Virus record (IMG/VR): IMGVR_UViG_3300021956_000049
Span: 1 to 33,271 of that record
DNA: 33,271 nucleotides
Strand: one strand, 5' to 3'
Source of the DNA: a virus
Shown: one piece after another, positions 523-4,792 of the stretch
How the letters are laid out: every line of letters begins with the position of its first letter
Position numbering within the stretch: the stretch's first letter is position 1
Notes under the pieces: model-generated
Seen by the model: only the letters and a program-made list of their open reading frames with translations
What the model was told of the DNA's origin: nothing
The model's database searches: none
Program-made: the position numbers and the translations under genes

Positions 523-622
523 CACACAGAAGGGATTCGAACCCTTATCGCATTAACTACTTATAGTGCTGCGTCCAGCACATCAATAGATGCCGCCCTA
601 TCCAATTGGTTTGCACTGTGTG
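523..622 (-). tRNA. tRNA-like element with long variable arm, anticodon unclear
   Basis: Read on the minus strand, this 100-nt element has a perfect 7-bp acceptor stem (CACACAG with CTGTGTG), a perfect T arm (AAGGG, loop TTCGAAT, CCCTT) and a D-loop-like AATTGGATA followed by GGGC. Its length fits a class II tRNA: CGCA/TGCG and ACTA/TAGT can form a long variable arm. The rest is poor. The D stem pairs at only about two positions, and the best anticodon arm has GU pairs and an 8-nt loop (CTATTGAT), so I assign no amino acid. No CCA is encoded. It could be a diverged phage tRNA, a decaying one or a tRNA mimic. Confidence 0.5.
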
Positions 623-625
623 AAT

Positions 626-696
626 CGGTCGCGCTGGAATCGAACCAGCTTTCCACGTAGCTTGTCGCCCTGTCCTTACCAATAGACTACCGACCG
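626..696 (-). tRNA. tRNA-like element, anticodon arm not canonical
   Basis: Read on the minus strand, this 71-nt element has a 6-bp acceptor stem (CGGTCG with CGACCG, plus one G-G mismatch next to the T arm), a good D arm (GTCT, loop ATTGGTAA, GGAC) and a perfect T arm (GCTGG, loop TTCGATT, CCAGC). An A follows in the discriminator position. The 21 nt between the D and T arms do not fold into a 5-bp stem with a 7-nt loop, so no anticodon can be named. It ends three bases before the second tRNA-like element on the same strand. Either a degenerate phage tRNA or a tRNA-shaped element with another role. Confidence 0.5.
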
Positions 697-728
697 AGTG
701 ACCCCCAGGTTTGTGCTTCATCCTTAAA

Positions 729-756
729 ACCATTTTGTGCACGTGAACAAAATGGT
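729..756. repeat. Perfect 10-bp inverted repeat upstream of the tRNA-like pair
   Basis: ACCATTTTGT and ACAAAATGGT flank an 8-nt loop containing CACGTG. On the minus strand the hairpin is followed by a short TTTT, so it could terminate transcription entering from the structured RNA or mark a processing site. It could equally be a protein-binding dyad. Nothing in the sequence decides between these. Confidence 0.55.
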
Positions 757-821
757 CTATTTAGTAGGAGAGAGGCATAGGGGGTGTTGTTGAATGGAAA
801 GGGGTAGCCTGTATTTTTAAT

Positions 822-838
822 CGTGATTTAAAATCACG
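822..838. repeat. 17-bp near-perfect palindrome
   Basis: CGTGATTT, one A, then AAATCACG forms a DNA dyad too tight for a natural RNA loop unless the inner pairs open. It lies in AT-rich DNA between the structured RNA and the hairpin at 729-756. An operator for a dimeric repressor is the simplest reading. No promoter is clear next to it. Confidence 0.4.
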
Positions 839-877
839 CCACTGACATCCCTTCCCATTTCCGGTTATTACTGGGGA

Positions 878-1135
878 CACTACCTACACACCGGCAAACT
901 CTGGTAGTGAACAGTCCGTCAAGCTTGCCAAATGGGTCGAGGGCTCAACCGTGGACCAAACGGGCGGAGGTGATCAACCCTCCGGCCTGGAAACCCAGGT
1001 CTTAAACGCAAACCAGGACAGGCAGGTGTGCCTTCATGGGCTGGTTGCACCCTGCCGACAGAGCAGCAGGGGTAGTTGATGGATCAGGTGTGTCGCCTTC
1101 TAGGCTATGTGCCTAACGCGCACAGGGACCTGACC
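878..1135. ncRNA. Candidate structured noncoding RNA (run of hairpins)
   Basis: This stretch has no plausible protein frame, is GC-richer than its flanks, and contains a chain of stems: CACTACC/GGTAGTG (878-884 with 903-909), CGGAGG/CCTCCG (965-970 with 979-984), CCTGG/CCAGG (986-990 with 995-999), GGCAGG-t-GTGC/GCAC-CCTGCC (1021-1031 with 1047-1056), and an outer TCAGGT/ACCTGA (1084-1089 with 1128-1133). The last encloses GTG/CAC, CGC/GCG and an AGGC/GCCT tip. The nested, bulged stems look like evolved RNA. Strand is undetermined; minus is favoured because the tRNA-like pair lies downstream on that strand. Known large phage RNAs beside tRNAs (GOLLD, ROOL) are the nearest precedent by location. 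I do not recognise the sequence. Confidence 0.5.
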
Positions 1136-1154
1136 GCTATCATTTGTAATGATA

Positions 1155-1183
1155 CAACAAAAAATAACACTGTGCAAGTGTTA
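1155..1183 (-). terminator. Rho-independent terminator of the tail-fibre operon
   Basis: On the minus strand TAACACT, loop TGCAC, AGTGTTA forms a 7-bp stem followed directly by TTTTTTGTTG. It lies 14 bases after the stop of the 108-aa gene and so closes the three-gene operon that begins at 4006. Confidence 0.8.
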
Positions 1184-1524: not shown

Positions 1525-3287
1525 CGGGTCACCTCCTGGAGCACCTCGTTTCCAAGACGGCGGGGCCAGAACACCAGACGTTTGATGGTTCCCCCGAGGT
1601 TGTTTGTACCAAAAATTGTGCCAATCCGAAGATTATTAACGCCATTTGGCGCTGATGCAGGAGAGCTTGCAGCAGGAATTGCTCCATTCACGGATACAGC
1701 CGCTCCGTCTGTTCCAACGCGATAGCAAATAACGGATTTAGCAATAGATGAAGATGTAATGCTGCCGGTGTTTGTTGGATTAGATGCTACGCCACCTGAA
1801 ACAACTCGTGAAGCAACAGCCAAGGGGAAATTCCCTGCAGGGATAAACAGTGAAACGCGGTTATTGTTTGTTCCATCATCAACTGCAGTAACGCCTCGGT
1901 TGTTTGCAGCATCTTGAACTGCTGTTTGAAATTCCGCAAACACCGTCCCCTCATCCTGCCGATACCAGCTGGAGAAGTTGCTACCACTAATGCTGGCCAC
2001 GTCAGCACTGCGGGTGACCGTGGCGGTGGTGGTGGGGATGTAGCTGGTGGGGAAGGCGCCGGCTTCTAGTTGGGCACCAAGGGCGATGACAGTTTGCCCT
2101 GCTGTCGCGGAATCCGGCCCAATGCGGAACCAGTAATCAGTGCTTGTATTGCTGGGTGTAAAGGTTCCGGTGACGACGTAGGTTAGTCCATCACCCCAGC
2201 GGTACTGCGAAAGCACAGTCACGCTGCCAGCAACTGCGCTTACTGTGCTGAGCGAACCTACGGGTCCAGCGAGTACGGTTTCGGTCGAAAGAGTATTATT
2301 CCTGAGCACAATGCGCGCTCTGCCCGAGGTGCCAGCCCTATAAAATGCAGTAAAAGCATAAGTGGTTGATCCGGTCAGGTTTATACCTGCCCTAAAGATA
2401 GTGTGCCAGATCTGCCCACCGCTATTGACTTGAACTCCGCTAAATATACCCAGAGCCGATAGGCCCAGGTTATACACTGCCGAAAAGTCTGCTGACCAAT
2501 TAGCGTTGCACCCAGAGTATGTTACAAGGTTCGTCCTCTGCTCTTCCATCAGCAGCCCCAGGCACTCGCCGGTCGTGGGGTTGTGGTCAAACCGTGGGGC
2601 GCTGTTGATCGTGCTGGTGGTGGGGATGTACTCGCCCACCGTGCTGGATTGCTCTAGTTGGGCGCCCCAGGCGTACAGAGTTCCCGCTGGTATGCCATTA
2701 AGCTGAAAATTATAAGAAGCAGCGGAAGGCGGATTAGTTGTAGTAACGCTAAATCGTTGCCAATTTGTGGTAACAGTAATATTTGCTGTTCCGATATTAG
2801 TAAAAGGTGAATTGGAAAGGTAAACAATTAGCGACATGTTTAATGTGCCGCTTAAAGTCCTTAACCAAATACTGCCCGTTGAAACCGTAGAAATAACAGC
2901 GGCTTGTCCAATTGCGCCCGTTCCACTAGAAGCAATTTTGGTTGCCGTTGATCCGCCAACTGGATCTAAAGTATCGCCTGTATTGTTTGTAAGAGTGACG
3001 TTTGCATTAAACCAAGGGCTTGTTGCCAGCTCTTGACTCCTGAGCAGCAGGTTCGTCGTCGCCGTATTGATCAACCCGTTGCTGCCCGTGCTCATCCCAC
3101 TGCTGGCGCGGGTGAAGGTGATCAGCGACTGGCCGGTGACCGCATCTACCAACGACTTGTTATCCGCAAAACGCAAGTCAAGGCTGGGTACTGCCTTGGC
3201 GCGGCGCCATAGTTCGTTCTTTACCCAAGGGCCGGCAAGTACACCGCCAGGTGCAATCGCTGCACGAAATGCTGAAGAACCACGCAT
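1521..3287 (-). CDS. Tail fibre / receptor-binding protein with lectin-like domains
   Basis: A 588-aa protein. The N-terminal part has DLRFADNKSLVDAVTGQ followed by ITFTRASSG and TTNLLLRSQE, a signature of phage fibre proteins with concanavalin-like heads. Two beta-sandwich, carbohydrate-binding-like repeats follow; each ends in a similar block (LEQSSTVGEYIPTTST and LEAGAFPTSYIPTTTA). The C-terminal third (SSWYRQDEGTVFAEF to FWPRRLG) resembles a LamG/concanavalin A fold. It probably binds the cell-surface polysaccharide and sets host range. Its ATG overlaps the stop of the 239-aa gene. Base composition changes sharply along the gene: GC-rich near 1521-1590, 1970-2110, 2560-2690 and 3050-3240, AT-rich between, as expected for a mosaic gene built by domain exchange. 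Confidence 0.85.
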   Translation of the reverse strand: MRGSSAFRAAIAPGGVLAGPWVKNELWRRAKAVPSLDLRFADNKSLVDAVTGQSLITFTRASSGMSTGSNGLINTATTNLLLRSQELATSPWFNANVTLTNNTGDTLDPVGGSTATKIASSGTGAIGQAAVISTVSTGSIWLRTLSGTLNMSLIVYLSNSPFTNIGTANITVTTNWQRFSVTTTNPPSAASYNFQLNGIPAGTLYAWGAQLEQSSTVGEYIPTTSTINSAPRFDHNPTTGECLGLLMEEQRTNLVTYSGCNANWSADFSAVYNLGLSALGIFSGVQVNSGGQIWHTIFRAGINLTGSTTYAFTAFYRAGTSGRARIVLRNNTLSTETVLAGPVGSLSTVSAVAGSVTVLSQYRWGDGLTYVVTGTFTPSNTSTDYWFRIGPDSATAGQTVIALGAQLEAGAFPTSYIPTTTATVTRSADVASISGSNFSSWYRQDEGTVFAEFQTAVQDAANNRGVTAVDDGTNNNRVSLFIPAGNFPLAVASRVVSGGVASNPTNTGSITSSSIAKSVICYRVGTDGAAVSVNGAIPAASSPASAPNGVNNLRIGTIFGTNNLGGTIKRLVFWPRRLGNEVLQEVTR

Positions 3288-4659: not shown

Positions 4660-4722
4660 CTCAGATTCTTTGGGTAGCCTTACTATAACGGTTGCCGGCT
4701 GCATGCGCACGTAAAACGGAAT

Positions 4723-4763
4723 CACATATAAAACAGTATGACAAACACACCGTTTTATATGTG
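4723..4763. repeat. 12-bp inverted repeat between operon genes
   Basis: CACATATAAAAC (4723-4734) and GTTTTATATGTG (4752-4763) are perfect complements separated by 17 nt, in the gap between the methyltransferase stop and the 68-aa gene. No U-tract follows on either strand, so a terminator is unlikely. The TATAAAA core on each arm could be a pair of divergent promoter elements or an operator controlling an internal promoter for the three small genes. Confidence 0.5.
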
Positions 4764-4792
4764 TAGAAACCTTAACAATGCAGTGCGGAAAA

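Follow-up and report, generated by a model that had tools for sequence, protein, structure and literature searches.

The abiF RNA family (Rfam RF03085) includes RCd22 of a C. difficile prophage, an RNA with two abiF motifs that binds and neutralises AbiF directly, both in cis and in trans (PMC12373285). An abiF RNA was reported earlier in S-CREM1, without a function (PMC9964418). The tRNA cluster of S-CREM1 also holds the structured cyanophage RNAs manA and wcaG. GOLLD and ROOL are phage-associated RNAs that lie near tRNAs, and pseudo-ToxI of phage PhiTE repeats a single 36-nt unit in tandem, as ToxI does. Precedents exist for structured phage RNAs that neighbour tRNAs and may act as antitoxin mimics; for a mosaic array such as the one described here, no precedent is known.

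The DNA analysed was a 33,271-nt stretch of a virus (IMG/VR record IMGVR_UViG_3300021956_000049), called the window below, and coordinates without a locus number (L) refer to it. The source virus infects freshwater cyanobacteria. By primase, its closest named phage was the freshwater Synechococcus phage S-EIVl (58% identity over 98% of the protein). The minus strand from 1142 to about 796 is almost certainly a structured non-coding RNA that belongs to an RNA family; this large family has no name and is made of swappable folded modules. The modular RNA forms the 5' portion of an array of RNAs only, in which the promoter-like sequence, the modular RNA, an abiF-like motif (786–701) and tRNA-like elements A (697–625) and B (622–523) follow each other on the minus strand. 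The features are listed in this order.

1149–1177, minus strand: sequence resembling a promoter, TTGCAC and TATCAT with 17 nt between them, ending 6 nt ahead of P1
1077–1142, minus strand: P1 module, with outer stem TGAT/ATCA, six-base stem GTCAGG/CCTGAT, internal loop and CGC/GCG
within 1077–1142, minus strand: P1 apical hairpin, TTAGGC-ACATA-GCCTA
1050–1071, minus strand: P2 hairpin, CCCTGC-TGCTCTGTCG-GCAGGG (covariation)
1011–1046, minus strand: P3 arm, AACCAG ... CTGGTT, enclosing a hairpin AGGC/GCCT (module typing, and L029, L045 and L058 aligned with the window)
984–1003, minus strand: P4 hairpin, CCTGG-GTTT-CCAGG (fold and covariation)
965–984, minus strand: P5 hairpin, CGGAGG-GTTGATCA-CCTCCG (fold and covariation)
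913–964, minus strand: pseudoknot domain, with P6 CCG/CGG, P7 GGTCC/GGACT crossing P6, and P8 TGAGC/GCTTG
796–909, minus strand: further structured module with a CACTACC/GGTAGTG stem, common to L043 and L061 (read by eye)
701–786, minus strand: abiF-like RNA motif whose loop carries a 40-nt hairpin insert (RF03085 match)
625–697, minus strand: tRNA-like element A, a cloverleaf in which a 3-bp arm with a GACAA loop replaces the anticodon arm (fold and covariation)
523–622, minus strand: tRNA-like element B, a cloverleaf with a long anticodon-side stem ending in a GACG loop (fold)

Structure, extent and strand of the RNA

The preliminary description had marked 878–1135 as a gene-free stretch with at least five stems, one of them nested. 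The nested stem (TCAGGT outside GTG/CAC, outside CGC/GCG, outside AGGC/GCCT) was identified as the P1 module at 1142–1077 on the minus strand, and at least five further helices follow P1. The stretch is a real structured RNA, but its limits had been set too narrowly, since the first module begins at 1142 and structured, conserved sequence runs on to about 796; the abiF-like motif of the same array had been overlooked. ORFs inside 878–1135 encoded only 42–43 aa, stops occurred in all six frames of the window RNA, and no protein frame was common to the relatives checked. As had been stated, the stretch was richer in GC (58.5%) than its flanks (47.3% on the left, 55% on the right); the window mean was 44.7%, and the 65 nt immediately to the right had 31%.

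Rfam analysis at gathering scores found nothing in this region of the window, and none of the Rfam 15 models matched the modules at 1142–796. At lax thresholds, the matches besides the abiF-like one were a weak tRNA-Sec match (element A) and implausible eukaryotic and plastid ones. No description of the modules was found among open-licence papers; an earlier description could exist.

Single-sequence folding was weakly unusual (z −2.3 for the plus strand and −1.2 for the minus strand). Folding energy by itself would not have settled the structure; covariation among relatives does. In each of three regions (the pseudoknot domain, P2 and P4/P5), the four best-covarying pairs all lay in predicted helices. 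Together with the lack of an Rfam 15 match over 1142–796 and of a conserved protein frame, these pairs support the earlier suggestion of a structured phage RNA class, here one absent from Rfam 15, by the tests proposed with that suggestion. The wobble pairs were asymmetric between the strands, with 51 G-U against 3 A-C cells, which shows that the RNA strand is the minus strand.

Promoter-like sequence and P1 module

The promoter scan of the window gave a single weak consensus match at 1149–1177, which was not above chance in the window alone. The promoter claim therefore rests on the relatives: a TATANT-like box lay at the same spot, a few bases before P1, in nearly all of 30 distinct P1 versions. 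This promoter-like box in a fixed place is the only point in favour of transcription of the array, which is presumed here from sequence.

The P1 versions were collected by a search that required six-base pairing and left the flanks and the TATANT-like box free. Constant flanks, GAYAG-like on the 5' side and CCATC-like on the 3' side, enclosed a six-base stem that varied from phage to phage and a constant internal loop (for example, TCCCTG opposite CACA, or CCTCTG opposite CACG). P1 stood alone before abiF, without the middle modules, in several contigs and in the cultured phages S-SZBM1 and S-EIVl. In S-EIVl, an unannotated gap contained the promoter-like box, P1, the abiF-like motif and elements A and B, arranged as in the window.

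The hairpin GGC-NNATA-GCC, followed by GAA, lies in P1 (1101–1116, minus strand). The same hairpin with GAA forms the anticodon arm of another tRNA-like type (downstream in L041, L047, L057 and L058) and is free-standing in S-SZBM1 (L232, about 965–1000). The copies may reflect common origin or convergence.

P2 to P5 modules and module exchange

In the P2 region, the four top covarying column pairs were all in one stem, with a best E of 0.0025; in L005, whose RNA was 90% identical, a G-C pair of the P2 stem was changed to A-T. In the P4/P5 region, the four best pairs were all helix pairs, none of them below E 0.2.

P3 was the most exchanged module, with at least five types among the relatives. 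L029, L045 and L058 were near-identical in P1, P4, P5 and the pseudoknot, but P3 was of the window type in L029 and of another type in L045 and L058. Simple pattern typing gave 13 module combinations among the 33 pseudoknot loci with enough sequence. The modules are exchanged between phages like cassettes.

A second pseudoknot, between the P1–P2 linker (CATCAAC) and the P5 loop (GTTGAT), was considered and rejected: it fits the window and L005 and fails in L022, L011, L025 and L015.

Pseudoknot domain and its distribution

P7 crosses P6, so the domain is an H-type pseudoknot. It was found in 39 viral contigs including the window, 31 of them distinct. The neighbouring 108-aa protein, used as a lead, gave two loci, of which one was useful and led to L005; further relatives were recruited by pattern scans of viral contigs, and a covariance model added two pseudoknot contigs (L224 and L225).

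The helices were drawn by eye from the same sequences, ahead of the covariation test. In the 31 distinct sequences, 95.2% of the cells were paired and 62 cells were changed on both sides; the covariation score was 0.414, compared with 0.183 for shuffled and at most 0.106 for slid versions. Since the recruitment pattern fixed most of columns 35–56, conservation in those columns carries no weight; the pattern left free P6, the 5' strand of P7 and of P8, and the 3' strand of the last three P7 pairs. For a phylogenetic null, an R-scape-like procedure compared all 1711 column pairs with 200 alignments that had been simulated along the tree with no structural constraint. The four top pairs were all in the proposed helices: 16–58 (E 0.005, P7), 27–50 (E 0.03, P8), 10–22 (E 0.44) and 9–23 (E 2.2), the last two in P6. 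Only 16–58 and 27–50 were significant over all pairs. In the module that follows (796–909), L061 has CACTGC/GCAGTG where the window has CACTAC/GTAGTG.

When the pseudoknot model was run against 98 loci from the abiF scan, nothing convincing was found, which indicates that the pseudoknot is optional and no constant partner of abiF. In 84,980 bacterial and archaeal genomes, 49 exact pattern matches were found, none with the surrounding structure, and they were regarded as chance. BLAST of phage isolates with the RNA or its relatives revealed no true match; isolates surfaced only through the abiF motif.

Other RNAs were observed in the relatives. Glutamine and glutamine-II riboswitches in the same contigs (L027:2610-2674, L029:667-720, L043:4273-4328, L045:6976-7029 and L058:2935-2988) are consistent with cyanobacterial hosts. 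A conserved RNA-like stretch (GGGTACAACAAGGAACGTTGTATTAAACGAA...GTAGGTGGATACT) lay beside tRNAs in L003 (about 2902–2985, minus strand) and L022 (about 4675–4772, minus strand); it is common to S-CREM1 and a metagenomic phage.

abiF-like motif

The window matched RF03085 at 784–701 with 30.6 bits (E 0.003), below the gathering cut-off of 37. At the same place, the cut-off was passed in L022, L029, L042, L054 and L058 (40.9 to 55.7 bits), and matches above it were also obtained in three cultured phages: S-SZBM1, S-SRM01 and mycobacteriophage Redno2. The window motif has the outer stem, the inner XGC/GCX stem (UGC/GCA) and the GC-CAAAC segment, and the inner stem covaries in the relatives (AGC/GCU, GGC/GCC). 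A strict abiF motif lay within 330 nt 3' in 26 of the 31 distinct pseudoknot loci, compared with 22 of 2000 random windows. By eye, the motif was also seen in L037 and L047; three other pseudoknot loci, namely L050, L051 and L055, lacked it.

A search of 20 viral records and five phage genomes for an Abi_2 (PF07751) gene was negative; many of the viral records are fragments, beyond which such a gene may lie, and a PF07751 search misses AbiF proteins outside that family.

Motifs like abiF are common in phages. The abiF core scan revealed the motif in at least 120 viral stretches, with cyanophages among the abiF-carrying phages; examples lie in L113-L223, L231:1100-1316 and L233:1501-1537. A few matches, such as L211, had a tandem pair of motifs. 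About 64 mycobacteriophage records had a weak BLAST match to the abiF-like motif, one of which was confirmed by Rfam. In a large abiF group, a TTGACA/TATAAT-like promoter and a short conserved leader (GGGGTCCAAAC...GTAAGTCC) precede abiF, which is followed by a tRNA.

tRNA-like elements

The two tRNA-like elements noticed earlier on the minus strand both folded as cloverleaves, one of them with strong covariation. Acceptor, D and T arms were present by fold in A and B, and neither had a 5-bp anticodon arm with a 7-nt loop and an anticodon. ARAGORN called no tRNA in the window, neither A nor B; elsewhere it called some copies of element A, with inconsistent anticodons.

Element A was searched with acceptor pairing required and the short arm and T stem left free. 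In 27 distinct sequences, 99.4% of the cells were paired and the covariation score was 0.722, compared with 0.214 when shuffled; the short arm had three covarying pairs and 97.5% of its cells paired. Element B showed paired changes in L005, from GTGCTG/CAGCAC to GCACTG/CAGTGC.

Element A occurs in many cyanophages and was unannotated in the phage records examined, S-PM2 included. Copies were located at L002:2991-3061, L003:2991-3061, L004:2991-3061, L229:16384-16451 and L232:1070-1140. In L025-L027, a compact RNA resembling a four-way junction (GCGTCTTGGTGTAAGGAACACGCCTGGCACATAGCCAGGAGATACCGCCCGATACGGTAAGACGC) comes right after the abiF-like motif and resembles a tRNA with an altered T arm. 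In the window, a short HNH endonuclease-like frame (PF01844; 232–486, minus strand) comes just after the tRNA-like elements, and an HNH gene likewise follows element A in phage DSL-LC03.

Proposed role and alternative explanations

The preferred but tentative reading, which we consider quite possible, is that the array yields RNA decoys that are produced on infection and act against host defences that cleave RNA. Its abiF-like motif would mimic the antitoxin RNA that silences the AbiF toxin by binding to it; elements A and B, without a normal anticodon arm, would imitate tRNAs for tRNA-cleaving defences; and the swappable modules, one of them a pseudoknot, would be mimics of further RNAs to which host defence proteins bind. 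In such an anti-defence role, the array would be transcribed, processed and bound by proteins.

Firm ground for the decoy reading is provided by the abiF motif, for which no toxin gene was found in the records searched. The strict motif stands directly 3' in 26 of the 31 loci, and the tRNA-like elements lack a normal anticodon arm. Cassette-like exchange of modules is expected of an arms race and was counted in favour of the decoy role, which for the modules other than abiF is suggested by position and exchange. Against it, these modules resemble no known antitoxin RNA, the abiF match of the window is below the cut-off, a locus usually has one abiF motif where RCd22 has two, and L050, L051 and L055 are without abiF. 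In a wider and more doubtful form of the proposal, aquatic phages would carry a general RNA counter-defence island of promoter, exchangeable module cassettes, abiF mimic and tRNA mimics that have no anticodon for decoding, in which each module would bind a different RNA-cleaving or RNA-sensing defence protein.

It is rather unlikely, yet worth weighing, that the modules and the abiF-like motif form the 5' leader of a phage tRNA transcript, stabilising it or guiding its processing, and that the abiF likeness stems from a shared sturdy hairpin and not from toxin binding. The constant order of promoter-like box, modules, abiF motif and tRNA or tRNA-like element would suit a leader, as would the other arrangement of leader, abiF and tRNA in many viral contigs; however, the letters of the abiF loop and inner stem are kept, beyond the hairpin alone, and a plain leader leaves the exchange of whole modules unexplained.

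The array could also be a phage regulatory RNA, either a cis-acting ligand sensor or an sRNA or protein sponge acting in trans to alter host expression, like cyanophage manA and wcaG. Its compact pseudoknot is similar in form to riboswitch aptamers, and manA and wcaG lie in the tRNA cluster of S-CREM1. We consider this explanation unlikely, because abiF and tRNA-like elements lie downstream instead of a protein gene, and the modules match neither RNA: the models of manA (RF01745) and wcaG (RF01761) gave no match in the window at any threshold used, and both were found in S-CREM1.

A hairpin-rich, gene-free region with exchanged pieces might be a DNA element such as an origin, a packaging site or a recombination hotspot, but the excess of G-U over A-C cells, the pseudoknot and the RNA families on the same strand make this very improbable. 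Membership in the giant phage RNAs GOLLD or ROOL, which had been suggested by position near the tRNA-like elements, was the weakest explanation and can practically be dismissed, as neither covariance model matched at the gathering threshold or up to E 5 on 200–1300, and the RNA differs in size (about 260–350 nt), in its swappable modules and in its constant neighbour, the abiF-like motif.

The family, absent from Rfam and with strong structural support, has its first module in cultured cyanophages and is tied to abiF motifs of phages in which the matching toxin gene was not found. If the array is indeed a set of decoys, counter-defence would be part of what the tRNA clusters of phages do, and from each module one could trace a host defence based on RNA sensing or RNA cutting; with S-EIVl, S-SZBM1 and S-SRM01, cultured phages are available in which to test the idea.

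Comparison with known systems

GOLLD and ROOL are like the window RNA by position only; the window RNA is shorter and modular, without a match to their models. manA and wcaG differ from it in structure. With phage tRNAs, elements A and B share the acceptor, D and T arms; in place of the 5-bp, 7-nt anticodon arm, A has the 3-bp arm with GACAA loop and B the long arm with GACG loop.

Compared with type III antitoxins, each locus had one pseudoknot and no tandem repeats, and no toxin gene was found in the 420 nt downstream. The proposed likeness to pseudo-ToxI is that of a phage RNA imitating an RNA antitoxin and, in general terms, of a pseudoknot fold; in contrast to the repeated unit of pseudo-ToxI, the window modules are unlike one another and, apart from abiF, match none of the known antitoxins.

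The phage loci differ from RCd22 in that no AbiF gene was found nearby in the records searched, one motif is usual instead of two, unrelated modules precede the motif, and the loop in the window has the 40-nt hairpin insert. The motif 3' of the modular RNA nevertheless has the same conserved stem and loop letters as abiF RNA such as RCd22.
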